62,283 nt of DNA from Longimicrobiales bacterium (GCA_029245345.1 JAQWPM010000018.1:1-62283); one strand, 5' to 3'. Positions 32,104 to 62,231 are shown, counted from the stretch's first letter. Notes: a model not told the origin generated them from the sequence alone. Numbers and translations are program-made.

Positions 32104-32144
32104 CCGAGTCCTCGGCCTGGTTTCTCATCCCATCCAGGGAAGGC

Positions 32145-33575: not shown

Positions 33576-33640
33576 GGCACCGGATGTGAAGAGAAATTCC
33601 CCATTGTTCGACCATAATAGGCGAAAGAGGTTCCATCGCC

Positions 33641-36916: not shown

Positions 36917-36955
36917 CGCGGTTCCCTGCCTAGCCTAGCGTCTTTGGTGACTGGG

Positions 36956-36983
36956 GCCGCCCCCCTTAACAGAGGGGGGCGGC
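36956..36983. terminator. Hairpin between convergent genes
   Basis: Stem GCCGCCCCCCT/AGGGGGGCGGC, 11 pairs with a 6-base loop, midway between the stops of two convergent genes; likely acts in both directions. No U-run on either side. Confidence 0.6.
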
Positions 36984-36988
36984 AGCCA

Positions 36989-37612: not shown

Positions 37613-37816
37613 GATGAGTTCCAGCTTTCTGTGAAAAGACGCATGGAGTGGGAATCACTGTTGTCTCCTACGGCCCTGGGGGTGTCCGAGGTTCGCTTCC
37701 GCGCGTGTCGGCCCCTCCGACCGCCACTGCACCCGGCCCCGCAAGGGATGGCGTAGCACCCTCTCCAGGCGCACTTTGCCGGTCTCGTCACACGCCGTCG
37801 CGAAGGAGTCGACTAG

Positions 37817-39493: not shown

Positions 39494-42212
39494 CGGACTG
39501 ACGCTGTTCCTAGACGGAGAGGAAGTCGAATTCACGAAGGGTGAGTCGATTTTCCAAGTTTCCGAACGGCATGAGAAGGAGATCCCGACGCTCTGTTATG
39601 ACGACCGCCTGGATGCGTTTGGCGCATGCCGGCTGTGCGTCGTGGAGCTCGAAGGCGCACGGAACCCCGTCGCCTCTTGCACGACCCAGGCAGAACCCGG
39701 CATGCGGGTCACAACACGAAGCGGGAAACTGGAGATGCACCGGCGCGTGCTCCTCGAGATGGTCGTGTCAGAAAACCGGGAAGTCGACGTCAACGAACTG
39801 GCGGGATACGCATCTCAGGAAATGACGACGCTGGTCGATCGTTACGACGCACGCACCGGCCGCTTCGAGGGTGATAAGTCCGGAACGTCGAGAGATGACG
39901 ATCCGAACCCGTTCATCATGCGCGACTACGAGCAGTGCATCTCCTGCTACCGCTGCGTACGCGTATGCGCCGAACAAGAAGGCGACTACGCGATCTCGAT
40001 CATGAATCGCGGCTTCGACACGCAGATCACGACAGAGTTCGGCGGACTCCTCAAAGACTCCGCGTGCACCTTCTGCGGCCAGTGCATACAGACGTGCCCT
40101 ACCGGCGCTCTCGGCGACCTAAAGGCACTTCGCGCCAAGGACGTCGAGCTTCCGGTAGAAAAGACGCGGTCCATTTGTCCATACTGCGGCGTGGGCTGTG
40201 CAGTCGACATCATGACGAAGGGCGACAAGATCGTCGGCATCCAGCCGGCCATGGACGGCCCCGCGAACGAGGGCGCGCTTTGTGTGAAGGGCCAGTTCGC
40301 CTTCGACTTCGTACATCACCCCGATCGTCTCAAAACGCCTTTCGTGCGGAATGACCACGGGCAGCTCGTCCCCGCCACGTGGGATGAGGCGCTCGACAAG
40401 GCTGCTGCGGGCCTGCTGGCTGCGGTCAACGAACACGGGCGTCACAGCCTCTACGCCGTCGCCTCTGGGCGAGCGCCGAATGAGGCCGGCTTCATGATGC
40501 AGAAGCTGGTGAGGGCTGGGCTGGGCACCTCGTACATAGACAATTGCAGCCGTGCCTGACACGCCCCTACAGTCGCCGGTCTGGCGGCAACCATCGGTAG
40601 GGGCGCCATGTCGAACCCACTCAAGGACATGGAAAAGCCCGATGTGATTTTCTGCATCGGGACCAACATGACCGAGTGCCACCCGGTCGCAGCGACGCGC
40701 CTCAAGAAGGCGATCGCGAACGGGGCGAAGATGATCGTGGCTGATCCTCGTAAGATCGGACTCGTGAATTACGCGGAAATGCACCTAGAGCTTCGTGTCG
40801 GATCCGACGCGGCCTTGCTGCTCGGTATGGCGCACGTCATCCACAGAGAGGGCCTGGTCGACGAAGGCTTCGTCGCAGGTCGCACGGCGGAGGCTGAGGC
40901 GTTCCTCGAGCACATCAAGGAATTCACGCCCGAGTGGTCGTCGCAGATCTGCGGCGTCCCGCCGGAGCAGATCGAAGAGGCGGGCCTTCTCTACGGGCGG
41001 GCCGAACGCGGAGCCATCTACTACACGCTCGGCATCACGGAACACATCTGCGGCGTGGACAACGTTCAGAGCCTGTGTAACCTGGCGCTCATGACCGGCA
41101 ACATCGGTCGTGAGGGGACGGGGATTAACCCCATGCGAGGCCAGAACAACATCCAGGGGGCCGGCGATGTCGGGGCGATCCCGAACAACTATCCGGGTTT
41201 CCAGTCGGTCACCGATCCGGCGATGCAAGCGAAGTTCGCCAAAGCATGGGGTCGGGAGGTCGATCTCGAGAAAGGCATCACCAAGGTGCGAGCACTCGAG
41301 CTGGCCGGTGACACCATCAAGGCGATGATCATCGACGGCGAAAACACCGTCGTGACCGACCCGGACCGGACACACTGCGAACATGCGCTCGATGCGCTCG
41401 ACTTCCTTGTTGTGTGTGATCTCTTCATGACCGAGACCGCAGAGTTCGCGGACGTCGTCTTTCCCGCGACCGGCTTCGGCGAGACCGACGGCACGCAGAC
41501 GAACACCGAGCGCCGTGTGCAACGCCTGCGGAAGGCAGTTCCACCGCCGGGCGAAGCGAAGCCCGACTGGTGGGTCATCTCGCAGCTCGCGCAGCGCATG
41601 GGCTTCGAAGGCTTCGACTATACCGATGCCAGCCAAGTCTTCAACGAACTGTGTGAACTCACCAGCACGTACCATGGGTTGAACTGGGATCGCATCGAAT
41701 TCGGCGAGTACCAGTGGCCCGTCCCGGAGGAAGGTCATCCAGGAACGCCTCGACTGCACGAGGAGGAGTTCATAAATGGGCGTGGGATCTTCAAGCTGAT
41801 CCGCTACCGCGACCCCGCAGAGACGATCGACGATGACTATCCGGTGTGGCTCACGACCGGGCGCAGGCTTGAGGCGTACCACTCGCGGACTCAGACCGGG
41901 CGCTCCTCCGGGATCGACTACCTGTTGTCAGAAGAGACCCTCGAGGTCAATCCGGACGACGTGGCTGCGTGGGGCGTAGCGGACGGGAGCTTCGTCAAGA
42001 TGTCGAGCAGACGTGGCTCGGTACGAGTCAAGGTCCAGGCGACGAAACGATCGCCCAGGGGCACTGTGTTCAGCTCGTTCTCGTTCAACGACGTGCCCGT
42101 GAATATTCTTACCGGGTCAGGCTATGACCCGATAACAGAAACCGCCGAGCTCAAGGTCTGCCCCGTTCGCATCGAACCGGAGAGCGACCAAGGAAGCGCG
42201 GCTGCAGACTAA
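39486..42212 (+). CDS. fdhF: Selenocysteine formate dehydrogenase, catalytic subunit
   Basis: 908 residues if the TGA at 40557-40559 is read as selenocysteine (residue 358). It oxidises formate to CO2 at a molybdenum or tungsten bis-pterin site. In order: 2Fe-2S ferredoxin domain (Cys37, 48, 51, 65), two 4Fe-4S ferredoxin motifs (CISCYRCVRVC, CTFCGQCIQTCP), a 4Fe-4S motif before the pterin domain (CPYCGVGC...CVKG) and the molybdopterin domains to the end. Before the TGA the protein reads DNCSRA and after it HAPTVAGLAAT, the exact place of the E. coli FdhF selenocysteine (ARV-U-HGPSVAGL). Frame is kept for 1.6 kb after the TGA with full family similarity, and a SECIS hairpin follows. Automated callers would split this gene into 39486-40559 and 40608-42212. 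Confidence 0.95.
40557..40605 (+). promoter_or_regulatory. Bacterial SECIS element with selenocysteine UGA
   Basis: UGA (40557-40559) is followed by a 9-pair lower stem CGCCCCTAC/GTAGGGGCG (40562-40570 with 40597-40605) and an upper stem GTCGCC/GGCGGC (40572-40577 with 40583-40588) capped by the loop GGTCT (40578-40582). Eighteen bases separate UGA from the GGUCU loop, the same as in E. coli fdhF. The U at 40573 sits in the register of the SelB-contacting bulged U, although here it can wobble-pair with G40587. Confidence 0.92.
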
Positions 42213-47727: not shown

Positions 47728-48639
47728 CTACAGAATACGCTGCGGGCCGTTTAGGGCTAGGGAGAAGCCGACCCGCTCGACGATCGCGGTCAGCTCCTGC
47801 TCTGTATACGCACCGATTTGCAGGCCCGGAGAACGAATGAAGGATGAGTCGATAATCCCTCGCTTTCGATACGTGAACTTGCGGTACGCGAGCCCAATCT
47901 TCGGCTGGAATTCATATCGAATGAGGGGCACGTAGCGGAAGAAGATCTCTGCCGCTCGTTCACGGTCTCCCGACCTGAACGCCTCATACACGGCGACGAG
48001 GACCTCCGGGAACGCAAAACCCGTCATGATGCCGCGCGATCCGCGCTGCAACTCCTCGAGAAAGTACATGCCCCCGAGTCCCCCGAAGATCCCGATCGTT
48101 GCAGGTGCGAATTCTTGTACGCGGGTCATCTTCTCGAGCGAGGGATAGTCCTCGAGCTTGATGTAGTCGACCCCGTCGATCTCGTTCGCCATGCGAGCGA
48201 TCAGCGTCGGGGAGAGCAGAGTCTTGAACGACTCCGGGAAGTCGTGGATCGACACCGGGATGTCGAGGGCCTCCGCGACCGATGCATAGTAGTCGAAGAT
48301 CGCCTCGTCGTTCTGGACCCCGAGGGGCGCCACAAAGACACCCGCAGCACCGAGCTCCTGGGCCTCGAGGCCCTGCTCGATCGCTCCCGCGGCACCAAAC
48401 GCGAGGACCCCGACCCACGTCGGAAACGCCCCTGCCGCCTGGCCTACTGCCGTCGACACGACGAGCCGACGCTCTTCATTCGAAAGCCGATGCGCCTCGC
48501 CCATGAAGCCGAGCACGCTCACGCCGTGTACGCCGACGGCGAGCTCGAAGTCGATCAAACGCCGTATGCTGCCTTCGTCGACCTGTCCTGCGTCGTCGAA
48601 GGGAGTGGGGAGGATGGGGAAAACGCCCTGAAGATCCAT
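47728..48639 (-). CDS. DapA family aldolase/lyase
   Basis: 303 residues, a TIM-barrel class I aldolase of the dihydrodipicolinate synthase/N-acetylneuraminate lyase group. The Schiff-base lysine is in YIKLEDYPS near residue 160, and GGLGGMYFLEELQRG follows as expected. The pyruvate-binding GTTGE-type motif is altered to LGFMGEAHRLS, so it is unlikely to be housekeeping DapA. Its place behind a cyclic amidohydrolase and an AroM-like gene points to a catabolic role on keto-acids from amino acid or hydroxy-amino-acid breakdown. 29 bases separate it from the upstream gene. Confidence 0.85.
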   Translation of the reverse strand: MDLQGVFPILPTPFDDAGQVDEGSIRRLIDFELAVGVHGVSVLGFMGEAHRLSNEERRLVVSTAVGQAAGAFPTWVGVLAFGAAGAIEQGLEAQELGAAGVFVAPLGVQNDEAIFDYYASVAEALDIPVSIHDFPESFKTLLSPTLIARMANEIDGVDYIKLEDYPSLEKMTRVQEFAPATIGIFGGLGGMYFLEELQRGSRGIMTGFAFPEVLVAVYEAFRSGDRERAAEIFFRYVPLIRYEFQPKIGLAYRKFTYRKRGIIDSSFIRSPGLQIGAYTEQELTAIVERVGFSLALNGPQRIL

Positions 48640-48668
48640 GAGTCTCAGTCTATGTGAGGTGGTCTGTT

Positions 48669-50027
48669 CTAGATGGGGGTTATGAATTTGCCCACACCGG
48701 CCTCGCCGACGACGTCACCATCTCGGAATACACACGAGCCCCGGAGCCACGTCGACACGACCCGGCCTCTGACTTCCTGTCCGTGATAGGGCGACCAGCC
48801 AACGGCGTAGTGAGTCGCGTCGTCCTGGACGGTCCACTCGGCGTTCGGGTCGAAGACGACGAAGTCGGCGTCGCTTCCCTCTGCCAACCGACCCTTTTGC
48901 ACGAGGCCGAACACATCTGCGGGTCCCGAGCACACCAGTTCGACGAACCGAGCGAGGTCAATGCGTCCCGTGGCCACACCCGCACTGTACAGAAGCGGCC
49001 CGAGTGTCTCCGCCCCAGGCATGCCAGCGAAAGCGTCGAAGATGTTCGGCGTCTCTTTTCGATGGAGCGGATACGGAGAGTGGTCCGAGGTCACGATGTC
49101 GATGGCCCCTGACTCCAGCCTCGCCCACAAGGCGTCGACCTCGTCCTGCGATCGAAGCGGCGGATTACACTTGGCCCTTCCTCCCTGGGCACTCAGCGCG
49201 TCCATGGTCAGTAGCAGATACTGCAGACACGTCTCTCCTGTCGCTGAGACACCCTGACTCCGGTTCCAGTCGATGAGGTCGAACGTGCGCGCGAGCGTGC
49301 CGTGGACCATGTGGAGACGAGCCCCCGTCCAATGCGCCAACTCGAGAAGTCTGCCCGCAGCCTCCGCCTCCGCCACGGGTGGGCGGCTGAGGGCATGATC
49401 GATCGGTGCGGTATCTCCGCGAGCACGAAAGGCCTCTTCTTGAGAGAAGATGATCTCCTGATTCTCTTGGTGCGCCGCGACCGGCAATCCGGTCCCTGCG
49501 ACCTCCTGGAAGGCCTCGTACAGCCTCCCGTCCGGAATCCGAGGGAAGCGCAACGGATCGGCTTCAATGGTCGACACCTTAAAACCAGCCGCGCCCACAG
49601 ACGCCATTTCGCCTAAGACGGATAGGTCACCAGTAGGTCCGAACGTCGCGTAGAGGGCTACATCGACGACGGCCTCTCGACCCACGTCTTCAATCTTGGC
49701 GACAAGCGTCTCCTTCGAATTCACCGGTCGGGCCGGTTTGTCGAAGGGCATATCGATGATCGTTGTCGTCCCCCCCGCAGCTGCAGCACGTGTGGTCGCT
49801 GTGATGCCCTCGTCGACGCACGAGCGGGTATGCACGTGGGCGTCGACAAAGCCGGGGAGGATGAGCATACCACGAGCTGTCAGGACCTCGACGGCCTCGG
49901 GCCGGGACGCCGACAACGCGACGATTCGCCCTCCTTGGACCGAGAGCCAGCCATCTCTGAGAACAGAGCCGTCGGGGCGAACAATGTCCCCGTTCACGGC
50001 GAGGTCGAGCGGCGCGTCCTGTGTCAT
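48669..50027 (-). CDS. Dihydroorotase/allantoinase/hydantoinase family amidohydrolase
   Basis: About 452 residues, a cytoplasmic cyclic amidohydrolase. Metal motif HVHTR (residues about 60-64 in GFVDAHVHTRS), later histidines in VAAHQENQE and HMVHGTLART, and the aspartate in VTSDHSPYP are all present. The end has FVVFDPNAEWTV, typical for hydantoinase/allantoinase relatives. The usual carbamylated lysine position appears as GFKVST, which fits. It would open a cyclic amide ring of an undefined substrate. I start at ATG 50027 (MTQDAPLDLAVNG), just after the AroM-like stop; the longer frame begins inside the AroM-like gene. Confidence 0.88.
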   Translation of the reverse strand: MTQDAPLDLAVNGDIVRPDGSVLRDGWLSVQGGRIVALSASRPEAVEVLTARGMLILPGFVDAHVHTRSCVDEGITATTRAAAAGGTTTIIDMPFDKPARPVNSKETLVAKIEDVGREAVVDVALYATFGPTGDLSVLGEMASVGAAGFKVSTIEADPLRFPRIPDGRLYEAFQEVAGTGLPVAAHQENQEIIFSQEEAFRARGDTAPIDHALSRPPVAEAEAAGRLLELAHWTGARLHMVHGTLARTFDLIDWNRSQGVSATGETCLQYLLLTMDALSAQGGRAKCNPPLRSQDEVDALWARLESGAIDIVTSDHSPYPLHRKETPNIFDAFAGMPGAETLGPLLYSAGVATGRIDLARFVELVCSGPADVFGLVQKGRLAEGSDADFVVFDPNAEWTVQDDATHYAVGWSPYHGQEVRGRVVSTWLRGSCVFRDGDVVGEAGVGKFITPI

Positions 50028-50043
50028 GATGTCTCGGAAGAGG

Positions 50044-50754
50044 TTACGTGTCGGCCAACACCGCATCGAGCGCGTTGATAGCCATCTCCCCTAGGTCAAA
50101 AACAGGGAGTTCGAGCAGGGTCCTCGTGAGGTCCAACAAGGCGGGAGAGAGGCCAACGTAGTCGAACACCAGCGCGTCGGCATCCGCGTGAAGCGCACTC
50201 GCACTCAATCCATCGCGGAGTGCACGACCGACCGGGCCTGAGCCTCCGGCACGCATGCCGTCATCCGGCACAAAGCCTGCCAGAGTCGCCACATGGGCCT
50301 GGGCTTCGAAGCCCGCGGAGGCCCACTTGGCTACGGACGGCCCTGCTTGTTCGATGAATGGGACGACGGCCACCAACTTCTCGACACCCTCCTCGCGAAG
50401 AACAGACGCGCTGAGCTCGAATGGCCGTATGAGCGGCTGCTCCCCGACCAACCCAGGGAACGGTCCGGCACAAAGCACCAGGTGCGCCGTGACCTCACTG
50501 TCCAACGCCGAGATAGCGTTTTGGATTTTCGGTTCGAGCACCTCAGCGTCCACTTCCACACGAGTGCCGTCCTGGAGCGTGGTTTCGAGCGGGAAGCCGC
50601 CACTGCGCGGCGGAGGCACGGCGCTCACGGCTGTACCATCGAGGGCTCCCACCACCACGAAGTCGACATCGGGGAAACGCTTTGAAACACCATCCGTGAG
50701 ATCCGGACGGGGCGTTTGACCGATGATGTAGGTCCCAACGACCGGACGGCGCAT
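50044..50754 (-). CDS. AroM family protein
   Basis: About 236 residues. It begins MRRPVVGTYIIGQTPR, the IGQTPR signature of the AroM family, and later has LVLCAGPFPGL and VFDYVGLSP. The family resembles Asp/Glu racemase-like folds, but its reaction is not established. It is the first gene of a three-gene minus-strand unit with a cyclic amidohydrolase and a DapA-family lyase. A racemase or hydrolase for a hydantoin-type substrate would fit that context, which is inference. Start ATG at 50754; an ATG at 50775 is also in frame. Confidence 0.8.
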   Translation of the reverse strand: MRRPVVGTYIIGQTPRPDLTDGVSKRFPDVDFVVVGALDGTAVSAVPPPRSGGFPLETTLQDGTRVEVDAEVLEPKIQNAISALDSEVTAHLVLCAGPFPGLVGEQPLIRPFELSASVLREEGVEKLVAVVPFIEQAGPSVAKWASAGFEAQAHVATLAGFVPDDGMRAGGSGPVGRALRDGLSASALHADADALVFDYVGLSPALLDLTRTLLELPVFDLGEMAINALDAVLADT

Positions 50755-50883
50755 AGTCCACTCGGTTTGAGGCACTGACAGGAGACCCCAGTCTCCCAGT
50801 CCGTTGGCAGATCACGCAAGCACCCCGCGTGTTTGGATCGCGCTCACCTGCTACGTTGGCAACCCTCAACGACCCCTTGGAGC

Positions 50884-51282
50884 ATGGGTATGATCGACAT
50901 GGCCAGCCGCACGAAACAACGCCGCACGCTCGGTTTGGCCCTGACAATCAGCCTAGCCGCCTGCAGCGGCCCTGAGGCCGAGTCCGCCGATCTCGTTCTT
51001 ATCGGTGGCTCGTTGTACTCGTTCGCCTGGAGGACGATGCTCGAGCTCGGAGTCCCGCTCACCTTCAACTCGGACAACCCGGGTTCGAGTCATGGCCCTT
51101 TTTATGGCTTGCATTCTGCGGTCACCCGGAGCGACCCCTCCGCCGAACCCCGGGGCGGCTGGTACCCGGAGCAGGCGGTAACGCCCGAAGAGGCCATCCG
51201 CGCTTACACGAGCGGAGCCGCTTACGCTGCGATCGTGGGCGGCGTGATCGCCTACGAAGCTCCCAATACCGTGAACCGGTAG
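50884..51282 (+). pseudogene. YtcJ-like amidohydrolase with large in-frame deletions
   Basis: About 132 residues that join three separated parts of a roughly 550-residue amidohydrolase: a lipoprotein signal (LAAC) with the first strand ADLVLIGGSLY, then directly TMLELGVPLTFNSDNPGSS through VTPEEAIRAYTSGAAYAA from near the C-terminus, and finally VGGVIAYEAP, the last strand. The metal-binding HxH, lysine and central histidine regions are missing, so it cannot be active. The frame is nevertheless intact, which is unusual for decay. It lies immediately before the AGCS symporter and may share its transcript (10-base gap). Confidence 0.8.
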
Positions 51283-51292
51283 AGACCCGCCC

Positions 51293-52735
51293 ATGGATAT
51301 CTTCCTCGACTCGCTGGCTACGATCGACACGTTGTTGTGGGGCCCGTGGACCATGGTCCTCATTGGCGGAGTCGGCGTGTACTTCACGATCCGCTCGGGC
51401 TTCTTCCAATTCACCGGGTTGTCGTACATCGTGCGCCGGACGGTCTGCAGCATCCGCCGCAGACCGAGTATAGGTGGCGGATCATCGGCTCTGATGAGTC
51501 CCTTCCAGGCCGCTGCCACCTCATTGGCCGGCACGGTCGGCATGGGCAACATGGCGGGCGTCGCTACCGCTCTCTCGGTCGGTGGCCCGGGTGCCATCTT
51601 CTGGATGTGGGTCATGGCGATCTTCGGCATGATGTCGAAGACGGTGGAGATCACGCTCGGCGTCTACTATCGCGAACGGGGCGAGGACGGCCAGATGCGC
51701 GGCGGACCCCAACACACCATTCGACGCGGACTCGGATGGAATCCGCTCGCCGTGCTGTTCAGTCTTGGCATGCTCGTGAATGCGGTTGTTGCCGCCTCGA
51801 TGCTGCAGGCACATACAGTCGGTAGAGCTTTCCTCGCTAGCTACGATCTGAATCCATACCTCGTCACAGGGGTTATGGCCGTCATCACAGCCATGGTTGC
51901 GCTAGGAGGATTGCGCCGGGTCGGCCGCTTCTCCGGTCGCATGGTGCCCCTCATGACACTCCTGTACCTCGCAGGCGCGATCGTCGTGATCCTACTCAAC
52001 GCCGAGCAGATCCCCGCGGTGTTCGCGTCGATCTTCGGGAGCGCCTTCACCGCCTCCGCTGGGGCCGGTGGTGTCGCCGGCGTGGCGGTCGCAGAGGCCA
52101 TCAAGCAAGGCATGGCCCGTGGGATGCTCTCGAACGAGGCAGGGCTCGGCACCGCGCCCATGGTGCACGCCACCGCTGAGACTGAGCATCCGTTCCAGCA
52201 AGGCGTCTGGGGAGCATTCGAGGTCTTCTTCGACACGATCGTGATCTGCTCGCTCACCGCATTCGCGATCCTGTCGACCGGAGCCATGGCCACCGGCGCA
52301 TCGGGAATCGAACTGGTCCTAGCCGCATTCGCAGAGGTGCTCCCGCTACCAGTGGCGTCGCTGATCGTTTCGGTGTCGATCGCCACGTTCTGTCTTTCGA
52401 CCCAAATCAGCTTCTTCGTCTACTTCGAGACCTGCCTGGTGAGCCTCGTCGGTGAGCGTCCGTTCAAGACGTTGCGCTGGTTCTACTTCCTGCCTGGTGT
52501 GCTCGTCGCGGGCGTCGCCGATGTGGACCGACTTTGGGTATTCGCGAACATCGCAGTAGCGGTCGTGTCGATTCCCAACCTGATCGCGATGCTCTGCCTC
52601 GGCGGGGTCTTCATGACGCTAATGCGCGACGAGACATCCGGAGAGCGTCGGTACGCGACCGCACTCGCAGATGACACGCCCGTCACGTTACGCGGAATCG
52701 GCGCGGTGGCCGAGCAGAGAACAGAGGCCGACTAA
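51293..52735 (+). CDS. Sodium:alanine symporter family protein (AGCS)
   Basis: 480 residues with about eleven helices. The family signature is clear near residues 70-100 (SLAGTVGMGNMAGVATALSVGGPGA), as are GGPQHTIRRGLGWN and the later EAIKQGMARGMLSNEAGLG. It would import alanine, glycine or a related small amino acid with Na+. It follows the deleted amidohydrolase by 10 bases, so the original operon probably coupled substrate hydrolysis with uptake. Confidence 0.94.
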   Translation: MDIFLDSLATIDTLLWGPWTMVLIGGVGVYFTIRSGFFQFTGLSYIVRRTVCSIRRRPSIGGGSSALMSPFQAAATSLAGTVGMGNMAGVATALSVGGPGAIFWMWVMAIFGMMSKTVEITLGVYYRERGEDGQMRGGPQHTIRRGLGWNPLAVLFSLGMLVNAVVAASMLQAHTVGRAFLASYDLNPYLVTGVMAVITAMVALGGLRRVGRFSGRMVPLMTLLYLAGAIVVILLNAEQIPAVFASIFGSAFTASAGAGGVAGVAVAEAIKQGMARGMLSNEAGLGTAPMVHATAETEHPFQQGVWGAFEVFFDTIVICSLTAFAILSTGAMATGASGIELVLAAFAEVLPLPVASLIVSVSIATFCLSTQISFFVYFETCLVSLVGERPFKTLRWFYFLPGVLVAGVADVDRLWVFANIAVAVVSIPNLIAMLCLGGVFMTLMRDETSGERRYATALADDTPVTLRGIGAVAEQRTEAD

Positions 52736-52809: not shown

Positions 52810-53221
52810 GTCGCAATCTCCAATGACCTGCCGTCGTCCGCGTCCTCTACACACCGCAGCATCCGCCCGGTGGCTCCAGCCTTACGGAACCAAGCGTACC
52901 TCGGACCGTGCTTTATTCTCTTGGGCACTCTCGAGCGCGACGTAGGCAAGCGTCTTGGTCTCCGCATACCAGTGCGCTCGTTCCCGGAACGCTGATAGCA
53001 CACGATCGCTCCAAGAGCACCCAGGCAAGAACGTCTGCGTACGCACGATGAAGAATGGGCGCTGAGGGACTCGAAGCCCCGCCCCCCTGCGTGTGAGGAA
53101 CGGCTCACAGTGCTTGGCTTTCGCGGACTTGGCGACCTCTAGGGAATCGCTTCGTTGATTGGTGGTACCTGGCCCACGGGGTTCACCGGATGGCGAGGGC
53201 GTCCAGAGCGGTTATGGTCAC
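52810..53221. other. Gene-poor stretch around the tRNA fragment
   Basis: No intact gene. On the minus strand between about 52885 and 53055 a frame reads RERAHWYAETKTLAYVALES before a stop, which may be protein debris. The longest open frame is partly a translation of the tRNA 3' half and is not a gene. Confidence 0.4.
53056..53096 (-). repeat. Degenerate 3' half of tRNA-Val (candidate attachment site)
   Basis: 41 bases that match 62157-62197, the 3' part of the intact tRNA-Val gene from anticodon-stem to discriminator, with three mismatches and the same orientation. The first 20 bases are identical. The 5' half of a tRNA does not follow. A leftover 3' tRNA end downstream of an intact tRNA is the usual mark of integration at that tRNA. 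Confidence 0.8.
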
Positions 53222-54889
53222 TCACCGCCTCAACAGCCGCCCGGGACGTGTGTCTGTGAGCACGCCATCGTCGATAACGGGAACCCCGTTCACGAAGACG
53301 TAGTCGATACCCTCCGCGTACCGCATGGCGTCACCGAAATCCGCGACGTCCCGGATCGCTTCCGGATCGAAGAGCAGGAGATCCGCGACCAGGCCGGGTG
53401 CGATCAGGCCGCGATCGTGCAGGCCCAGTCGCTGCGCAGCCAAGGAGGTCATACGGCGTACGGCATCTTCCAAGCTGAGCACCCCGTCCTCGCGAACGTA
53501 TTTCGCGATGACTCTGGGAAAGGCACCAAACGCGCGAGGATGCGCGCTCGCGGACGTCGCTGGGTTCACGGGAGAGGCGTCAGTATCGATCATCACGAAG
53601 TCGGCCGCGAGCGCCTGCCACTTCTGTTCTTCGTTCATGCTGCGCGGATTCACGCTTACCCCTCTGGCCTGAACCAGGTCGAAGAAGGTGTTCCAGACGT
53701 CGGTTCCGAGGACCTGAGCGGCCCCGGCCACCGAGCGGTTGATGACACGTTCGTCGACCGCGTTGGACCCGGACACGATCAGGACGTTGTCCCAATCCAT
53801 GCCCACGTGGCGGTACCAGTTCTCCCAGTCTGCTGTCGTCTCCACTTCGCGGCGGAGTTCCGCACGCACTTGGGGATCCCCGAGTGTCTCCAGGAAGGCC
53901 TCTGTGCCCTCGGCGTAGTGCCGGGGATGCAGGAACGAACCCAATCCGATGCCGTTGCGGACGTACGGATAGATATCGGCGGTGACATCCATGCCGGCGG
54001 TTCGGACCGAATCGATGAGCGCGAGCGCTTCGGCCATGAGTGGCCAATTCTCCTCGCCCGCCGCCTTCAGGTGGTAGATGTGCACCGGCACTCCGGCACC
54101 CTCACCGATCTCGATCGCTTCGCGGATCGCTTCAAGCACAGCATGGCTCTCGTTGCGCATGTGCGTGAAGTAGGTACCGCCGTACTCCCCCGCGACCTTG
54201 GTGAGCTCGATCAACTCCTCGGTGCTCGCGTAGATCGCGGGCGGATAGATCAACGAAGTGGAGACCCCGATCGCGCCATCCTCCATGCCCTGACGCACCA
54301 GAGCCTTCATCTCTTCGAGCTGCTCGGTCGATGGCTGGACGTCGTCCTCTCCCAAGACCACGCGCCGGACCTGCGTGAGTCCCACGTCATGCACGACATT
54401 CAGCGCGATCCCGTATCGCTCCATGACCGCGAAATACTCCGCGTAGGTGCGCCACGTCAGGGTGTCGCCGTCCACAACCGGTCCCGTACCTGACGTCTCG
54501 GGACTACGCGGCGCGGGTGATCCCCCTTCCCCCGACAAGTACGTCGTGATGCCCTGCCTGAGTTTGCTCTCTGCGCTCGGCGGATCGGTGATGAGTACCA
54601 GGCTCGACTGACCCATCATGTCGATGAAGCCTGGGCTGACAACCCGGCCTGCCGCGTCGATCGTGCGGGTGGCCTGCCTTCCCCCCAAGTGACCGACCGC
54701 CGCGATGCGGTCTCCGCGAATCGCCACGTCCCCACGGAACCAAGGGTTTCCCGCACCATCGACGATCCGGGCGTCTGTGATCAGGATATCGAAAGGTGAG
54801 TCGTCCCCGCCGTCCCCTGCTTCGCGCGCGCACGAAACCAGAACGAGGGTGGCGACCAAGACGGCTACGGCGGCATGTCGACGCATCAC
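53222..54889 (-). CDS. D-aminoacylase-like amidohydrolase lipoprotein
   Basis: 555 residues. A signal with lipobox (LVSC) anchors it to a membrane. The body matches N-acyl-D-amino-acid deacylases: GVSTSLIYPPA, THMRNESH, HLKAAG, ADIYPY and the end-region SAHPRAFGAFPRV. Notably the first metal motif, normally HxHD after GFID, is replaced by GFIDMMGQSS, so two of the usual histidine ligands are absent while the later histidines and an aspartate (DTDAS) remain. It may use one metal or a different chemistry. It diverges from a frameshifted relative at 54973 and lies in the putative island. Confidence 0.87.
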   Translation of the reverse strand: MMRRHAAVAVLVATLVLVSCAREAGDGGDDSPFDILITDARIVDGAGNPWFRGDVAIRGDRIAAVGHLGGRQATRTIDAAGRVVSPGFIDMMGQSSLVLITDPPSAESKLRQGITTYLSGEGGSPAPRSPETSGTGPVVDGDTLTWRTYAEYFAVMERYGIALNVVHDVGLTQVRRVVLGEDDVQPSTEQLEEMKALVRQGMEDGAIGVSTSLIYPPAIYASTEELIELTKVAGEYGGTYFTHMRNESHAVLEAIREAIEIGEGAGVPVHIYHLKAAGEENWPLMAEALALIDSVRTAGMDVTADIYPYVRNGIGLGSFLHPRHYAEGTEAFLETLGDPQVRAELRREVETTADWENWYRHVGMDWDNVLIVSGSNAVDERVINRSVAGAAQVLGTDVWNTFFDLVQARGVSVNPRSMNEEQKWQALAADFVMIDTDASPVNPATSASAHPRAFGAFPRVIAKYVREDGVLSLEDAVRRMTSLAAQRLGLHDRGLIAPGLVADLLLFDPEAIRDVADFGDAMRYAEGIDYVFVNGVPVIDDGVLTDTRPGRLLRR

Positions 54890-54972
54890 TCGACTCCTAA
54901 TTCAGCTTCGGGGGAGGAGAATCGTACTTCACACATTGACTCTCCACCACGCTCTGCGTCGTGCCGCGCGGG

Positions 54973-56323
54973 ATGGCTCAAGAGGTGTACGACATCGCCA
55001 TCCTAGGGGGCCGTGTCATCGATCCCGAAACTGGGCTGGATGCGGTGAGGAACATCGGTATCCGCGGAGACCTCATCGCCGCGGTGACCGTGGAGAGCCT
55101 CGAAGCCGTAACCGTCATCGACGCTCGAGGTCTCGTGGTCGCGCCGGGGTTTATCGACATCCTCGCGGCCCCTCCACGGCAAGACGAAGGGGCCGTCTTC
55201 AAGATCTTCGACGGCGTCACCACAGTGGTTTCCATGCACGGCGGTCCGGTGGACGCCGAGGAGTGGTACGAGCAGCGGGCCCAGTCCGGCTCGTATCACC
55301 ACTACGGCACCACAGTCGGACATGGGGCGTTGCGCAGTGCCGCAGGAGTCACCGACCCATACGCGCCGGGCTACACCCGTGCAACTGGGTTCGATGATCG
55401 TGATGGCGCGGCAAGCTCTTAGATATGGCGCCGTGGGAATCGGGTTCGGCGTCGCGTACGTGCCGGGCGCCTCACGCTTGGAGGTGTTGCGTCTCTTCGA
55501 ACTCGCCGCGGCCGAGGGCGTCCCCTGCCACCTGCACCTCCGCCACTTCGGCCCGGTACCGGCATCCAATAGCAGCCTCGATGCCGTAGAGGAGGTCATC
55601 GGAGCGGCGGCGATCACCGGGGCGGCGGCGCAGATCGCACACATCGGCAGTATGGTCGCCGACCCCACGGACATGGCGGCGGCTCTCTGGATGATCGAAG
55701 GTGCGCTCGCTCGTGGCATCGATGTAATGGCCGACATCTACCCCTACACCGCCGCCGCCACTGGACTCGGCACCACGACCTTCGACGACGGATGGCAGCA
55801 ACGGTTCGGCGGCATCGACTACAGCGACCTGGAACTGGTGTCCAACGGGGAGCGCCTCACCGCCGAAGGCGGCGTCCCTGTCGTCATCCACTACATCCCC
55901 GAACGGACGATTCAGGCCGCTCTCTCTCATCCTCTGGCGATGGTCGCGAGCGACGGAGTGATCCAGGGCGGCCGCGGGCATCCCAGAGCAGCCGGCACAT
56001 TCGCACGAATCCTGGGCAGGTACGTGCGGACGTTGGGCGTGATCGAGCTTCCCGACGCCATCGAGAAAATGACCCTCATGCCCGCGCAAAGGCTCGAAGC
56101 GTCCGTGAGGGGCATGAAACGAAAGGGTCGACTGCAACGCGGGGCAGACACCGACCTCGTGGTGTTCGATCCGGACGTCGTCGGCGACCAAGCGACGTTC
56201 GCGGAACCCGCTCAGCGGTCGGTCGGAATGCGCTGGGTCCTGGTGGGCGGACACCTCGTCATCTCGGACGGAATGGTGCAGGAGGCAGGAAGACCGGGGC
56301 AACCGATACGGCGCGGTCGCTGA
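54973..56323 (+). pseudogene. D-aminoacylase-like gene, frameshifted
   Basis: Two overlapping frames make one protein. 54973-55422 encodes the N-terminal part (MAQEVYDIAILGGRVIDPET, GFIDILAAPP, FKIFDGVTTVV). The second frame, from about 55390 to 56323, continues with ARQALRYGAVGIGFG, HLHLRHFG, MADIYPY, VASDGV, HPRAAGTFARI and FDPDVVGDQ. The switch (frame 1 to frame 2) falls near 55385-55405, where the family expects continuous sequence. As in its neighbour, the usual HxHD motif after GFID is absent. Either a true frameshift mutation or a sequencing error; without a shift neither half is functional. Confidence 0.82.
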
Positions 56324-56573
56324 CGGAGCACCCGTCGGTCTGATGGTGTGGCGTTGTTGCATGGCTCGGTCATGTGGACAGAGCCCCCCTTCCCCCGAGC
56401 GGCCGGTCAGGCCATTCGATAGCTGTCGGGCATGCCAAGCTGGGCCAGCGGCAAGTGAGCCCGTGGCGGGTGCCTCCCATTGTCAGTGCTCCGCCCGGGT
56501 CGTGACGGAGGTTCCTGCAGCTTTTCTTAGGTACCCGTTGGCAGCCCCCCCTCGACGACAGCGAATACGAAAA
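56324..56573. other. Intergenic stretch between D-aminoacylase pseudogene and SusD
   Basis: No gene recognised. Open frames on both strands here partly read through the palindromic terminator at its right end and look spurious. Confidence 0.5.
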
Positions 56574-56603
56574 GGCCCGCAGGAAGCAAGCTTCCTGCGG
56601 GCC
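56574..56603. terminator. Bidirectional terminator after susD
   Basis: Perfect 13-pair stem GGCCCGCAGGAAG/CTTCCTGCGGGCC with loop CAAG. TTTTCTC follows on the plus strand, and AAAA precedes it, giving a U-run for the minus-strand SusC/SusD transcript too. Confidence 0.92.
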
Positions 56604-56665
56604 TTTTCTCATTACCAAGCGGGCAGTCGGCCTGGAGGCCGGCCGCCGCGCCCCACCTCAGTGCA

Positions 56666-58063
56666 TCAGTATCCTGCGTTCTGCGTCATGTTCGGATTCG
56701 CATCCGTTTCGTACTGCGGAATCGGCAGAATGCAGAACTGACACGGGTAACCCATGAAAGCCACGTCGCCAGTGACGTCGACCCTGTTGATGTCCATCTT
56801 ATAGCGCATCAGATCGTGGATCCGATGGCCCTCATATCCCAGCTCAATCCGCCGCTCGAGAGCAATGGCATCGAGGAGGGCCTGGCCGGTAGCCACCACT
56901 GCCGGCGCACTGGAAAGACCTCTCTGGCGGATCATGTTCAGGTCAGCCTGCGCCCCGGCAGTGTTGCCGGAACGTGCGTGCGCCTCTGCCCGGTTCAGGT
57001 AGACCTCGGACAGCCTGATGACAGGAATGTTGTCCGTCGAGGTCGAGCTGGGCCACTTCATGACGCGATAGCTCGCATAGATCCCTGCGAGCCCAGGGTC
57101 AATCTGGAACATCTGCATCCGCACGTCGGCGGGATCAATCAGGTCCAACAGATCTTTGGCCGGGAGGTAGTCCCCGTATCCAGTGGCTCTGTACATGCTG
57201 CCGAGGGCGTTGTTCCCGTCCGTGTCGGTGTTCTGGATCTCGAAGATGGCCTCCGACGACCCACCGGCCTTGAACTGATCCACATACGCCTGGCCTTCCA
57301 CCAGCGCATACCTGCCGCTGGAGATGACCGAATTGGACATGGTCACGACGTTGGCCCAATCCTCCATGTACAGGTAGATCCTAGACAGGACCGCCTGGGC
57401 CGCGCTTGCGGTCATCATGAAGGATCCACCCCGGGTCTGGCTCATCATCGAAATCCCGCGAGTGAGATCCGATATAGCCTGGGTGTAGACCTCGCCCACG
57501 GTGTTCCGTGCTGGGAGCAAGGTTACATCCGGCTCCAGGACGATGGGAACGCCGGGGTGTGCCCCACCCGAGGTGAAGGTGTAGTGCTGCCCATACATCC
57601 TCACCAGGTCGAAATAGATCAACCCGCGAAGCGCGTAGACCTCACCCATGATCTGTTGGTAGTCGGCCTGCACGCTTGTCGGCCCATCGAACTCGGCCTG
57701 GATGATCATGTTGAGCATGTTGATGCCTTCGTAGCCCTCCGCCCACAGCTCTTGCTCGAAGCCGTGACCGGTCACAATCTGGCCTTCGAAGTCGGCGAAT
57801 TCCTGATAACGGTTCGCCGAACCGTTCTGCTTCACGTCCTCACCCATGATGTCTGCCATCAGGTAGAGGCTGCGGCCATAGTAGTCCGCGATGGAGATTT
57901 GGTCGTATACGCCGATGATAGCGGCCTCGTAGTCCCCGATCTGCTTGAAATACGCGTCGTTCGACACGGCAGAGTGGGGCTCCAGGACAAGATCGTCACA
58001 TGCGGACGCGACTATGATCAACGGCAACAGCACCGCAATCTTCGCATTCTTTAAGAGTCTCAT
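56666..58063 (-). CDS. SusD/RagB family outer-membrane lipoprotein
   Basis: 465 residues. The lipobox ASAC (about residue 19-22) is followed by the SusD-like helical repeat fold: YFKQIGDYEAAIIGVYDQI, ALRGLIYFDLVRMYG (typical TPR-like helix), VPIVLEPD, and at the end IPVIRLSEVYLNRAEAHAR with ERRIELGYEGHRIHDLMR, the characteristic C-terminal signature. It binds the substrate on the cell surface for the SusC channel encoded 57 bases upstream on the same strand. Peptide or glycan cargo cannot be told by sequence; neighbouring D-aminoacylase genes make peptides or modified amino acids plausible. Confidence 0.95.
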   Translation of the reverse strand: MRLLKNAKIAVLLPLIIVASACDDLVLEPHSAVSNDAYFKQIGDYEAAIIGVYDQISIADYYGRSLYLMADIMGEDVKQNGSANRYQEFADFEGQIVTGHGFEQELWAEGYEGINMLNMIIQAEFDGPTSVQADYQQIMGEVYALRGLIYFDLVRMYGQHYTFTSGGAHPGVPIVLEPDVTLLPARNTVGEVYTQAISDLTRGISMMSQTRGGSFMMTASAAQAVLSRIYLYMEDWANVVTMSNSVISSGRYALVEGQAYVDQFKAGGSSEAIFEIQNTDTDGNNALGSMYRATGYGDYLPAKDLLDLIDPADVRMQMFQIDPGLAGIYASYRVMKWPSSTSTDNIPVIRLSEVYLNRAEAHARSGNTAGAQADLNMIRQRGLSSAPAVVATGQALLDAIALERRIELGYEGHRIHDLMRYKMDINRVDVTGDVAFMGYPCQFCILPIPQYETDANPNMTQNAGY

Positions 58064-58119
58064 GATCGTACCTTATGGATATGGATAAAGTAGTGTTTAC
58101 CTTGGCTCGATTTCATTGC

Positions 58120-61100
58120 CTAGAATTCCACGGTAAACCCGAGACTCAACGTCTTGGAGTTCGGGGTACCCGTGTTGTAGACACCACTTACGGTCTGCTC
58201 AGGGTCAAAGTGGAGGTTTGGTGCCGCCACCCACGTGAGCGGGTTCGTCACGCTGAGGTTCGCCGTCAGTGCAGAGAACCGCATCCGGTTGGCCACGTCC
58301 GTCGGGAACCGATAGGAGACCGTGACATCCTTGAGTCGGATGTAGTCGCCCTTGTCCAAATACCGGTCAGCATTCGAAGGCTGTGAGCTGTTCACGCCAC
58401 CCCACGAAGGCCGTGGGAAGAGCGCGTCGTCACCAGGCTGCTTCCAGCTGTTCTCCCACGCCCACCGAGAGGTGGAGCGCGGCAGGTACCGCCCGTCACC
58501 GTGATAGAAGCGCTCGGCGTTCTCATAGAGGTAGTGGCCGAACATATAAGTGGCTAGAGAGCTGACGGAGATCGACTTGTAGCGCGCTTGGAAGCCGAAG
58601 GCGCCGAGATATTTCGGCGTGGCCGTCTTGTTGTCGTAGAACCGCTCCGCATCATTCAGCTTGTTGCTGGTCGTGGTCTTGCTCGCATCCGTGAACCACA
58701 GCGGATCGCCGTTGGCCGGATCGACGCCGGCCCACCCGTATAGATAGTACTCCTGGTAGTCCCGGCCCTCTTCCCTTCTCTTGGTACCGGCCAGGATGGG
58801 CTCCGTGAGCTTCGTGATCATGTTGTTCTGTGAGGTGATGTTGAAATCCACCCCGAAGTCGAAGTCCTCGGACCGCACGAGCTGCGCGTGGAGCGAGAAC
58901 TCGATTCCTGAGTTCTCCATGTCACCGAAGTTCTGGAGCGTGCTCCGGAAGCCAGTGGTGAGCGACGTCGGCACGTTCAGCAGAAGATCCGTGGAGGTCT
59001 TCTTGTAGTACTCGACGGTACCCGTCAGTCGGCTGTCCAAGACAGCGAAGTCCAGGCCGAGGTTGAAGGAAGCCTGGGATTCCCAGGTCAGCGCGGTGTT
59101 GGAGACACTGGTCGGGGAAGAACCGGGCAGACCGTTGTACGCCCTGTTGAAGCCGTAAAGGCCGCGCCAGGAGTAGTTGCCGATCTCGGCGTTGCCGACC
59201 TCACCGTAGCTAGTGCGCAGTTTTAGGTAGTCGAACAGGCCCATGTCTTGAAACATCGACATGTTGGTCAGCGTAATACCGCCGCCCAGCGCCCAGAAGT
59301 TACCCCAGCGCGTGTCAGGGCCGAACCTAGACGAACCGTCCGTCCGGAAGGAAGCGGAGACAAAGTACGTCCGGTCGTAGTCGTAGTTCACCCGTGCGAA
59401 GTACGACTCGAAGGTGTACTCGTCCTTGGTGGTGGTTCCTTCGGTGATCGCAGCGCTCGCGCCGCGCTTGAGGTTCGGATGTGCGAACCCTTGTCCCCAA
59501 ACATTGGTGCGCTGTCTGTCATTCTTGCTGGCCTCGTACCCGACGACCGTGTTTACACTGTGAACATCACTGAAAGTGTTGGTGTAGTTCAGTGTCTGGG
59601 TGCCCTGCCAGTTCAGGTTCGCTACGCGGGAATCGTCGAAGTTACCACCTACGTTCCGACCGTCTCCGAAGAACATGTTCTGGAAGACGTAGTCGTGAAT
59701 ACTGTACAGGTCGACGGCCCACGAGGAAGCCAGCGTTATCTGGTCGTTGAGCCGATACGTTCCGCTGAGGTTGTTGATGACCCGTGTGGTCTCACGTGTT
59801 TTGGGGTTCTCGTACAGGCCGCCCACAGGGTGGTTCGCACCCATGATGTTCCTGTGCCTGTTGTACCAATACCCGTCCTCGTCCTTCATGGGGAGCATGG
59901 GCGGCATAAAGACGGCCATGTACATGGGGGCCTCCCACGAGCTGCCGTCGTTGATGCCGTTCTGGTCCGTCTTGGCCACGTTGATGTTGTTGGCCAGGGT
60001 GAACTTGTCCGTGAGACGGGCAGTCAGGTTGATCCGGGACGACCAGCGATTGAAGAACTGCTGGTCGACGTTGCCTTGCTGGTCGAAGTTGCTGGCGGAC
60101 ACGTAGTACGTGAGCCGCTCGCTCCCGCCCGTGGCACTCAGATCGGTCTGCCTCGTCACGCCGTTCCGGCTCATGAGCTCACGCCAGTTGTTGTCTTCCT
60201 GGAGCGGCCACTGGTTAGCCAGCTGCACCTCGGCATCGGCCTGGGACATCCCACGGTTCATCCGAGACGTGACGTAGTAGTCGCGGTATTCCGCCGCGTT
60301 CAGACCCTGCAACAGGTTGTTGAAGGCAAAGTCCGACACGCCACCCTGCACCCGCATTTCGAACTTCGGATCGCTGGACCAAATGGCATTTCCTGCGACG
60401 CCACCCTTCGTCGTGATGAGCACCACGCCGTTGGCTCCTCGGGAGCCATAAATGGCGGTGGACGCGGCATCCTTCAGAACGACGAGGCTTTCGATGTCGT
60501 TCGGGTTGATGGACGCGAGCGTGTTCACCGTCCGTCCGCCGTTGCTCACCTCGGTGCTTGCGTTGGAGTCGTTGAAGAGCGGCACGCCATCGATCACGTA
60601 CAGCGGTTCGGCTCCGGCTGAGATGGAACCCTGTCCACGCACGCGGATGTCGAAGCCCGCACCTGGAGCGCCGTCAAGCGACGTGACCTGCACGCCAGGG
60701 CTGCCCTGGATGATGTCTTGGAAAGTCGTCGTCGTCGGGAGCTCGAGATCGACCGCGGAGATGGAGACGATCGAACCGGTCAGTTCCTCCTTACTCGAAG
60801 TCCCGTACCCCGTCACGACGATCTCATCGAGGCTCAACGGGTCCAGTTCCAGTTGGACTTCGACGTTGGCAGTCCCTCCTGCCGAGACCACTACCGTGAC
60901 TGACGACATGGAGTAACCGATGGAGCTGACCTCCACTTCGTACGTTGCCGGCGGTACCCGAAGGATGATAAACCGACCATCCTGGTTCGTTAGGGAACCG
61001 AGTCCGGTGCCCGCAATGAGGACGTTCACGTTGGCCAAGGGTTGGCCCAAATCCGCGGAAGTAACCTGGCCGACGAGGGTACCGAAGTCGTCTTGGGCTG

Positions 61101-61167
61101 TAGCGTCTTCTACCATGACGCCAAGACCGAGAAGCACAACGGCAGCGAGTCCAATCAGACTCTGCAA
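58120..61167 (-). CDS. SusC/RagA family TonB-linked outer-membrane transporter
   Basis: 1015 residues. A signal peptide (AAVVLLGLGVMVEDATAQ) is followed by a carboxypeptidase-regulatory-like domain (about 30-110, GQVTSADLGQPLANVNV), then the TonB box/plug (IVVTGYGTSSKEELTGS, SPGVQVTSLDG, IRVRGQGSI, YVIDGVPLF, YGSRGANGVVLITTK) to about 245, and a large beta barrel ending in a terminal aromatic strand (SLGFTVEF). It imports oligomers across the outer membrane with TonB energy in partnership with the SusD lipoprotein. It is the first gene of the pair; the promoter lies in 61168-61478. Confidence 0.96.
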   Translation of the reverse strand: MQSLIGLAAVVLLGLGVMVEDATAQDDFGTLVGQVTSADLGQPLANVNVLIAGTGLGSLTNQDGRFIILRVPPATYEVEVSSIGYSMSSVTVVVSAGGTANVEVQLELDPLSLDEIVVTGYGTSSKEELTGSIVSISAVDLELPTTTTFQDIIQGSPGVQVTSLDGAPGAGFDIRVRGQGSISAGAEPLYVIDGVPLFNDSNASTEVSNGGRTVNTLASINPNDIESLVVLKDAASTAIYGSRGANGVVLITTKGGVAGNAIWSSDPKFEMRVQGGVSDFAFNNLLQGLNAAEYRDYYVTSRMNRGMSQADAEVQLANQWPLQEDNNWRELMSRNGVTRQTDLSATGGSERLTYYVSASNFDQQGNVDQQFFNRWSSRINLTARLTDKFTLANNINVAKTDQNGINDGSSWEAPMYMAVFMPPMLPMKDEDGYWYNRHRNIMGANHPVGGLYENPKTRETTRVINNLSGTYRLNDQITLASSWAVDLYSIHDYVFQNMFFGDGRNVGGNFDDSRVANLNWQGTQTLNYTNTFSDVHSVNTVVGYEASKNDRQRTNVWGQGFAHPNLKRGASAAITEGTTTKDEYTFESYFARVNYDYDRTYFVSASFRTDGSSRFGPDTRWGNFWALGGGITLTNMSMFQDMGLFDYLKLRTSYGEVGNAEIGNYSWRGLYGFNRAYNGLPGSSPTSVSNTALTWESQASFNLGLDFAVLDSRLTGTVEYYKKTSTDLLLNVPTSLTTGFRSTLQNFGDMENSGIEFSLHAQLVRSEDFDFGVDFNITSQNNMITKLTEPILAGTKRREEGRDYQEYYLYGWAGVDPANGDPLWFTDASKTTTSNKLNDAERFYDNKTATPKYLGAFGFQARYKSISVSSLATYMFGHYLYENAERFYHGDGRYLPRSTSRWAWENSWKQPGDDALFPRPSWGGVNSSQPSNADRYLDKGDYIRLKDVTVSYRFPTDVANRMRFSALTANLSVTNPLTWVAAPNLHFDPEQTVSGVYNTGTPNSKTLSLGFTVEF

Positions 61168-61478
61168 ACCCCACCTAAGTGAATGAAAAATAATATCTCT
61201 CCCCTCATTACGAGGAATAAAAGGGAATCATCTCCGAACAACCTTGTCCGAACTGGAGAACAGATATTACTCCACTCGTACTTCGGCAAGCCCCCTGAAA
61301 AATGGTCGACAGCCTGGGAGCGGGGGCGACCGAAAGGGTCGGTTGGTGCGGCCGCCCCTTGGCGGCCAGAAGCTAACGAGGTAAGACTAGAGCTAAGGGA
61401 TCGGTTCCCACGGATTATACTTGATGGTGAGGACCAGGCACCGGCTGTTCGGGGCCATGACATTAGGGAGTTACTCCA
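61168..61478. other. Divergent control region of susC and the plug lipoprotein
   Basis: 311 bases without a gene. It must hold promoters for the leftward SusC/SusD pair and the rightward plug-domain gene. A TATACT-like -10 occurs near 61417-61422 on the plus strand; no clear operator is seen. Confidence 0.5.
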
Positions 61479-61982
61479 ATGAACGCGTTCTGCAGATACC
61501 GTCTTGTCCCTGCTCACTGCTGGCTGTTCGGTGTGCTGCTGCTCTTGTTCCTGCCGGCCTGCGCGACCACGTCATCGGCGGGGGCCAGGCCGTCGGAAAG
61601 AGAGATGGTCGACATCGGCTATGGAACGGTCGACCCTGACCACCAGACCGGGTCCGTAGTCACTCTTGACGGTCCAGGCACCGGCGAAAACGCCTTCCGG
61701 AGCTTGGGCGACATGTTGAGCAAAATCCCGGGTGTCCAGGTCCAGCAGCTGCCCGGTGGGCGAATCAGCGTGCGGATTCGCGGCACCAATTCGTTCTTGG
61801 GCGGCAAAGAGCCGCTCTGGGTAGTCGACGGAGTGACAATCCAGACTGGCGCCGGGCTCGCCGGCATCAATCCGAGTGCCATCCAGTCGGTTACGGTTCT
61901 GAAGGACCCAGGAGAAACAGCCGTTTTCGGAAGCCGCGGTGCCAACGGCGTGATCCTAGTCAGGATGCGAAGCGGCAGGTAA
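61479..61982 (+). CDS. Free-standing TonB plug-domain lipoprotein
   Basis: 167 residues. The N-terminus has a hydrophobic signal and a lipobox (LPAC), then a complete SusC-type plug: GYGTVDPDHQTGSVV, MLSKIPGVQVQQL, ISVRIRGTNSF, LWVVDGVTI, INPSAIQSVTVLKDPG and VFGSRGANGVILVRM. It stops exactly where the beta barrel would start. It therefore cannot be a transporter; it could bind TonB, gate or inhibit a SusC channel, or sense occupancy. It is divergent from susC. Similar short plug proteins exist in these phyla, but I know of no assigned function. Confidence 0.88.
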   Translation: MNAFCRYRLVPAHCWLFGVLLLLFLPACATTSSAGARPSEREMVDIGYGTVDPDHQTGSVVTLDGPGTGENAFRSLGDMLSKIPGVQVQQLPGGRISVRIRGTNSFLGGKEPLWVVDGVTIQTGAGLAGINPSAIQSVTVLKDPGETAVFGSRGANGVILVRMRSGR

Positions 61983-62010
61983 CACCTGTGAGTGGCGAAA
62001 ACTGACGTTG

Positions 62011-62051
62011 TGCCCCCCTGATCCGCGCTGGGCTCGGTTCAGGGGGGCACG
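62011..62051. terminator. Hairpin after plug lipoprotein gene
   Basis: Stem GTGCCCCCCTGA/TCAGGGGGGCAC, 12 pairs with a 17-base loop, 29 bases past the stop codon. No U-run follows. Confidence 0.6.
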
Positions 62052-62103
62052 TCAGAGCCTCAGGTGAGGCCCAACAGCGGGAGTCGCTTGTTCTGCGCTA
62101 ACT

Positions 62104-62139
62104 AAAAAACCCCGCCCAAGGTCGGAACCTCAAGCGGGG
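62104..62139 (-). terminator. tRNA-Val terminator
   Basis: Read on the minus strand: CCCCGC...GCGGGG with additional inner pairs (AGGT/ACCT), followed by six T (62109 to 62104). It lies 17 bases past the 3' end of the tRNA gene. Confidence 0.88.
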
Positions 62140-62156
62140 CCTCATCAAAGCCCAAG

Positions 62157-62231
62157 TGGGCGCTGAGGGACTCGAACCCCCGACCCCCTGCGTGTAAAGC
62201 AGGTGCTCTAACCAAGCTGAGCTAAGCGCCC
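62157..62231 (-). tRNA. tRNA-Val (anticodon UAC)
   Basis: Read on the minus strand: acceptor stem GGGCGCT/AGCGCCC, D-arm TAGCTCAG with TTGGTTAGAGC, anticodon arm CCTGC-TTTACAC-GCAGG (anticodon TAC, reading GUA/GUG), T-arm GGGGGTTCGAGTCCCTC and discriminator A. CCA is not encoded. Its 3' part is duplicated at 53056-53096. Confidence 0.97.

Follow-up and report, generated by a model that had tools for sequence, protein, structure and literature searches.

Genomic islands of the Islander kind are recognised by a regenerated transfer RNA (tRNA) gene, or tDNA, together with a displaced fragment of the end of that gene, which lies on the right side and in the right orientation at 2-200 kb, with an integrase gene inside the interval (PMC4383910). 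Tycheposons, which are likewise tRNA-associated and carry cargo, are bordered by a complete tRNA and have a tyrosine recombinase (PMC10872708). Here, we describe a related arrangement in a 62,283-nucleotide contig of Longimicrobiales bacterium (GCA_029245345.1, JAQWPM010000018.1:1-62283), which is referred to as the window or, among the contigs of the host genome, as C18. A segment at 53.1-62.15 kb, carrying SusC/SusD and D-aminoacylase genes, is bracketed by an intact tRNA-Val(TAC) gene and a displaced copy of the 3′ half of that gene. We consider it likely, with a probability of roughly 0.78, that this segment is a degenerate tRNA-borne genomic island that has lost its integrase.

The intact tRNA-Val(TAC) is the sole tRNA that ARAGORN detects in the window (Table 1). 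The displaced fragment was aligned by BLAST with positions 75-37 of this tRNA and is identical to it at 37 of 39 nucleotides, reaching from the anticodon loop to the tRNA 3′ end. An earlier note on this DNA, made from the sequence alone, had described a same-strand copy of the 3′ half on the 3′ side of the intact gene, and this description is confirmed, with the copy starting at tRNA position 37; the three mismatches given there are reduced to two in the 39-bp core. When the alignment is extended without gaps to 46 nucleotides, the fragment matches at 40 positions; no other place on the two strands of the window exceeds 26 of 46, which excludes a chance match. Other plausible left ends of an insertion, at 29.1 and 42.2 kb, have no tRNA-Val remnant, and therefore only the right-hand segment is bracketed. 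The contig itself ends 52 bp upstream of the tRNA, and contig C15 begins with the last 141 bp of C18, an exact overlap on the tRNA, and extends the 5′ side.

The segment resembles the Islander islands in its intact tDNA and displaced 3′ fragment and in a crossover subsite centred on the anticodon. The fragment holds the tRNA 3′ end and lies downstream of the tDNA in the same orientation; the interval measures 9.1 kb, and the fragment sits between genes (an AGCS gene ending at 52735 and a D-aminoacylase gene from 53222), outside any conserved coding domain or other tRNA. Islander islands, in contrast, require an integrase gene within the interval, in place of which the segment has no more than a remnant of an element end. 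As all Islander features tested are present except the integrase, the segment is classed as a degenerate relative of these islands and not as a full member. With tycheposons it shares a tRNA border and nutrient-related cargo, but it has a 39-bp fragment besides the intact target instead of an extra full tRNA, and no recombinase.

The tRNA-Val locus was compared across 121 genomes of the family, of which one, G001, is a genus-mate of the host. Many relatives conserve the 5′ side of the gene, with its sigma-54 regulator, peptidase-MA protein and further genes, at 71-83% identity in G001, and the 3′ side is different in nearly every genome. Fragments of the tRNA-Val 3′ end were found in six other genomes (G105, G106, G115, G079, G031 and G024), where they mostly start at tRNA positions 28-37, in the anticodon stem-loop, and end at positions 73-76, each of them extending into the region of the 3′ end; G031 has three tRNA-Val 3′ ends, of which one is truncated where its contig begins. 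Integrases adjoin two of these fragments. On G031 contig C34, the distance between the fragment and a PF00589 integrase is about 60 bp, and on G106 contig C41, whose chromosomal neighbourhood is the same as that of the window, the arm-binding N-terminus of another integrase (PF13356) begins about 190 bp from the fragment. Next to the intact tRNA-Val, an integrase of the family present in G031 and G088 lies 50-100 bp on the 3′ side in seven genomes (G088, G008, G105, G027, G002, G006 and G007; the placement in the last three was derived from the coordinates of tRNA and integrase listings). Integrase scraps comprising the C-terminus, of 109 amino acids in G057 and 33 amino acids in G031 contig C77, form a decay series at the same tRNA. 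Contig ends also fall within 500 bp on the tRNA-Val 3′ side in 6 of 28 cases versus 2 of 45 (p = 0.03), although these counts were compiled by hand and are only suggestive; C18 itself ends in its overlap on the tRNA, and the G001 contig ends 1 bp past the 3′ end of its own. Taken together, tRNA-Val is a recurrent integration site in the family.

A pair of genomes from another genus documents the process. G031 contig C77 starts inside tRNA-Val and has a second copy of the tRNA-Val 3′ end at 8.8 kb. The two genomes are collinear starting from position 8799 of C77 and tRNA position 34 of G034, at 82-87% identity over 2.5 kb, and in G034 the same sequence stands uninterrupted directly behind the intact tRNA-Val; G028 agrees in part. 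The 8.7-kb insert in G031 encodes an amidohydrolase, SusC, a weak SusD match, a transposase-domain match (DUF772-type) and the C-terminal integrase scrap. With G034 empty and G031 filled, insertion of SusC/SusD cargo into tRNA-Val, with loss of the integrase, is thus documented in the family. The G031 element (L107) and the window segment share the same tRNA, a similar size, SusC/SusD with amidohydrolase cargo, and the decay of the integrase, of which G031 keeps a scrap. They differ in that the G031 cargo is not orthologous (the SusC proteins are 26% identical) and contains a transposase match, and that its empty site is known.

Several further features of the site were observed among the relatives. 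In G028, a member of the integrase family lies on the 5′ side of tRNA-Val and abuts its 5′ end (L093), and in G035 a tRNA-Val 5′ half (L098, 16079-16114) precedes the intact gene by 1.1 kb; together these suggest a variant in which the 5′ half is split off. In G105, the displaced fragment (L104, 9962-10005) has the T-stem GGGGG/CCCTC found in other g36 genomes, and the intact tRNA-Val (L115, 2295-2370) has GCAGG/CCTGC; here an element appears to have swapped the tRNA-Val 3′ half. A tyrosine integrase family is strongly amplified in G002-G035 (genera g2 and g3; for example L324-L342), with maxima of at least 15 scored copies per genome at E ≤ 1e-20 and up to 77 first-look candidates per genome. 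Of 20 fetched copies, four lie no more than 1.5 kb from a tRNA, which is tRNA-Val in one case and tRNA-Pro(TGG) in three.

The sequence immediately beside the intact tRNA in the window provides a further link to these integrases. Read from 62144 down to 62073, it aligns with the tRNA-Val/integrase interval of G088 with a local alignment score of 64, as compared with a maximum of 24-29 in 300 shuffles; a partial match to the tRNA-Val flank of G096 scores 58. At its end, the G088 interval holds the integrase stop codon together with two repeats spaced by 14 bp, one of which is retained in the window. Paired direct repeats of this kind stand behind the stop codon of each of the 20 integrases examined from the G031/G088 family, with at least 9 of 10 bases matching in 12 of the 20, versus 42 of 4000 shuffles. 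Their period is 13-14 bp and their sequence, for example AGCGGGARTC, varies by integrase subgroup (L323-L342); they look like attP arm sites. The single repeat in the window was not accepted as evidence on its own and counts only through its place within the alignment to G088. The sequence next to the displaced fragment, at 53.05 kb, has no comparable match to an element end. A match at the intact tRNA and none at the fragment is what one would expect had the present 3′ half of the intact tRNA come with the element.

A history consistent with these observations would begin with a tyrosine integrase recombining an element with the 3′ half of tRNA-Val(TAC), from the anticodon loop to the 3′ end. 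The element's own copy of this half would have completed the intact tRNA-Val at 62.2 kb, and the original half, displaced to 53.06 kb, would then have decayed without selection. The integrase gene, which normally lies 50-100 bp 3′ of the tRNA, may later have been deleted, leaving the terminator and one arm-type repeat, and the nutrient-uptake cargo would have been retained. We infer that the block entered in one event by means of an integrase of the G031/G088 family.

A number of results weigh against this reconstruction. No integrase, nor any integrase remnant of at least 25 amino acids, was found in the window, as the earlier note had stated for the segment, and the whole host genome has no member of the G031/G088-type integrase family at E ≤ 1e-20. 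The arm-type motif alone is expected 0.64 times per window by chance and is not significant, and the shared terminator could be old native sequence behind tRNA-Val. The relatives compared did not yield the exact empty site proposed previously, in which tRNA-Val would adjoin the AGCS region; in G001, the contig stops at the tRNA, and the last part of contig C21 of that genome, beyond the FDH trio, is free of tRNA-Val sequence. An empty site was seen at the orthologous tRNA of the other genus, in the G034/G031 pair, and none for this block. The GC content of the segment is not anomalous (61.2% versus 61.5%). Its tetranucleotide profile, which counts in favour of an island, deviates more than those of 40 of 41 equal-size host segments, with 42.2-53.05 kb not deviant; SusC by itself may, however, be the source of this signal. 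The SusC protein is 75% identical to its G062 homologue and the flanking core regulator 71%; the two divergences are similar, and nothing points to a recent transfer. The view that the insertion is old is supported by the decayed fragment, the absence of the integrase family from the host and a frameshifted cargo gene.

The cargo DNA has no match in G001 beyond short stretches, and no SusC orthologue is present in that genome. At E ≤ 1e-150, SusC was found in eight other genomes of the 121, in seven of them at 66-75% identity. These homologues have SusD alongside and D-aminoacylase not, and none has tRNA-Val nearby in the six stretches read.

The location of SusC/SusD elsewhere in other genomes, without D-aminoacylase, speaks for an alternative in which the fragment is a genuine integrase scar and the present content of 53.1-62.15 kb was assembled later, by deletion, homologous recombination or gene-by-gene replacement. 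The wider region is relevant here. Between 22555 and 42212 lies a conserved block that is collinear in G001; in G060, G071, G098 and G106, parts of the block are linked with tRNA-Val or with the tRNA-Val fragment. In G060, the M19 dipeptidase gene lies 1 kb 3′ of tRNA-Val, compared with 36 kb in the window, and in G071 the DPPIV gene lies 70 bp 3′ of it, compared with 33 kb, each in the same relative orientation. The order from dipeptidase or DPPIV to the FDH-like trio, which ends at 42.2 kb, is kept in G001 and in part in G095, G096, G097 and G106. Beyond this point all compared genomes differ, and in G106 the next landmark is the tRNA-Val 3′ fragment with its integrase. Therefore, the whole of 42.2-62.15 kb is regarded as an accessory region, with an internal scar at 53.06 kb; this variable region of about 20 kb probably consists of stacked insertions and not of one island in a pristine chromosome. 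Later assembly of the segment is favoured by these differences after the FDH trio in every comparable genome, by the foreignness of 42.2-53.05 kb relative to G001 and G106, and by the deleted integrase and the frameshift in one D-aminoacylase. On the other hand, the block is compact at 9 kb, its borders fall exactly at both tRNA ends, its composition is deviant as a unit, and a comparable 8.7-kb SusC/SusD unit was demonstrably inserted in G031. On balance we regard later assembly as a tenable but improbable account. The previous description of a 9-kb island stands as to the geometry of the bracket, and the segment is absent from G001; the 9 kb may have entered as one unit, and the left side, being itself accessory, may not be native chromosome.

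A different doubt concerns the 80 bp beside the intact tRNA. If these were native, the tRNA would never have been rebuilt by this element, and the fragment would stem from an older, unrelated insertion. The terminator is common to G088 and G096, which belong to two other genera, and terminators behind tRNA genes are common. However, the G088 stretch takes in the end of the integrase gene and the paired repeats, and other members of the G096 genus have unrelated 3′ flanks, and a native origin of these 80 bp accordingly seems to us rather doubtful. Still less credible is an illegitimate duplication of the tRNA-Val 3′ half without an integrase, as would fit the lack of such a gene in or near the segment: the extent from anticodon to 3′ end, the strand and the 3′ position are the integrase signature, like fragments occur at tRNA-Val of several relatives with an integrase adjoining in two, and the sequence at 62073-62144 resembles an element end. 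Integrase-type insertion, as originally proposed, is well supported by indirect evidence, namely the fragments and integrases of the relatives, the empty/filled pair and the resemblance to an element end over about 80 bp.

From the fragment towards the tRNA, the segment of the degenerate island contains an intact D-aminoacylase gene, a frameshifted second one, SusD with SusC, and a plug-domain protein gene (Table 1). By its relation to the solved enzymes 1m7j and 1rjp, the product of the intact gene is a putative D-aminoacylase with predicted activity on N-acyl-D-amino acids. The frameshift in the second gene lies near 55.4 kb and may be an assembly error. The cargo probably serves nutrient uptake, perhaps of N-acylated D-amino acids or peptides, the substrate being deduced from the gene families. 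The segment resembles SusC/SusD loci of the polysaccharide-utilisation type in its SusC and SusD pair, but has D-aminoacylases instead of glycoside hydrolases, and no sensor or regulator was seen. The label of a catabolic island given earlier accordingly holds for the gene content, SusC/SusD and D-aminoacylase being present, with "catabolic" resting on family assignment. Phage families were not found among the cargo genes in Pfam or NCBIfam, and a phage origin was rejected, as no viral contig had the exact att core or a related integrase.

Table 1. Features of the tRNA-Val locus in the window, in order of position.
Feature	Coordinates	Strand	Basis or remark
Conserved block 3′ of the locus: SSF symporter, M19 dipeptidase, DPPIV, FDH/NADH-dehydrogenase-like trio	22555-42212		Collinear in G001
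Accessory cassette outside the fragment: DHDPS-family aldolase, hydantoinase-like amidohydrolase, AroM-like protein, AGCS amino-acid symporter	47728-52735		
Displaced tRNA-Val 3′ fragment (tRNA positions 37-75)	53056-53094	-	Left boundary of the bracketed segment
Intact D-aminoacylase (amidohydrolase superfamily), predicted	53222-54889	-	phmmer against solved D-aminoacylases 1m7j/1rjp, E about 1e-74; PF07969
Frameshifted second D-aminoacylase, two overlapping frames	54961-56323	+	NF006560 positions 21-144 in one frame, 166-513 in the other
SusD-family substrate-binding lipoprotein	56666-58063	-	PF07980, PF14322; accompanies SusC in relatives
SusC/RagA TonB-dependent transporter	58120-61167	-	TIGR04056, 701 bits against a cut-off of 368
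Stand-alone SusC plug-domain protein, probable lipoprotein	61479-61982	+	PF07715, TIGR04056 partial
Element-end remnant: rho-independent terminator and one arm-type repeat (AGCGGGAGTC, 62076-62085)	62073-62144	-	Local alignment, repeat architecture
Intact tRNA-Val(TAC)	62156-62231	-	ARAGORN; integration target and right boundary; 5′ flank continued on contig C15 and conserved in relatives

The four-gene hydantoin/amino-acid cassette outside the fragment occurs across phyla, in Acidobacteria SP213, Longimicrobiales MOX_bin14 and UBA4456, and in none of these three does tRNA-Val lie beside it. To judge by the kinship of genes nearby, the host may belong to Gemmatimonadota. The nearest models to its amidohydrolase are those of hydantoin-5-propionate amidohydrolase, with a score below the cut-off. 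A terminator-like repeat at 62021-62065 recurs in closely similar form on three other contigs of the host genome, C17, C22 and C3. Several small contigs, namely C15 (L004, 571-840), C27, C5, C10 and C30, carry a dispersed repeat roughly 100 bp long at intervals of 0.4-6 kb, apparently the leader and start codon of short open reading frames; a reading of these repeats as integron attC sites was rejected, since the canonical core sites are absent.

The element itself is of an ordinary kind, and its interest is mainly that of a pointer to an active hotspot. One could imagine that the amplified tRNA-targeting integrase family ferries nutrient-uptake cassettes into tRNA-Val, and that islands without an integrase, having kept their ends, are movable in trans by the integrases of relatives. 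We put this forward as a long shot; if true, tRNA-Val would be a shared docking port for feeding genes. The candidate integrases, attachment sites and arm repeats supplied here are directly testable. In a poorly studied family, one tRNA-Val gene emerges as a recurrent insertion point, at which SusC/SusD genes would have been acquired twice, with different cargo.

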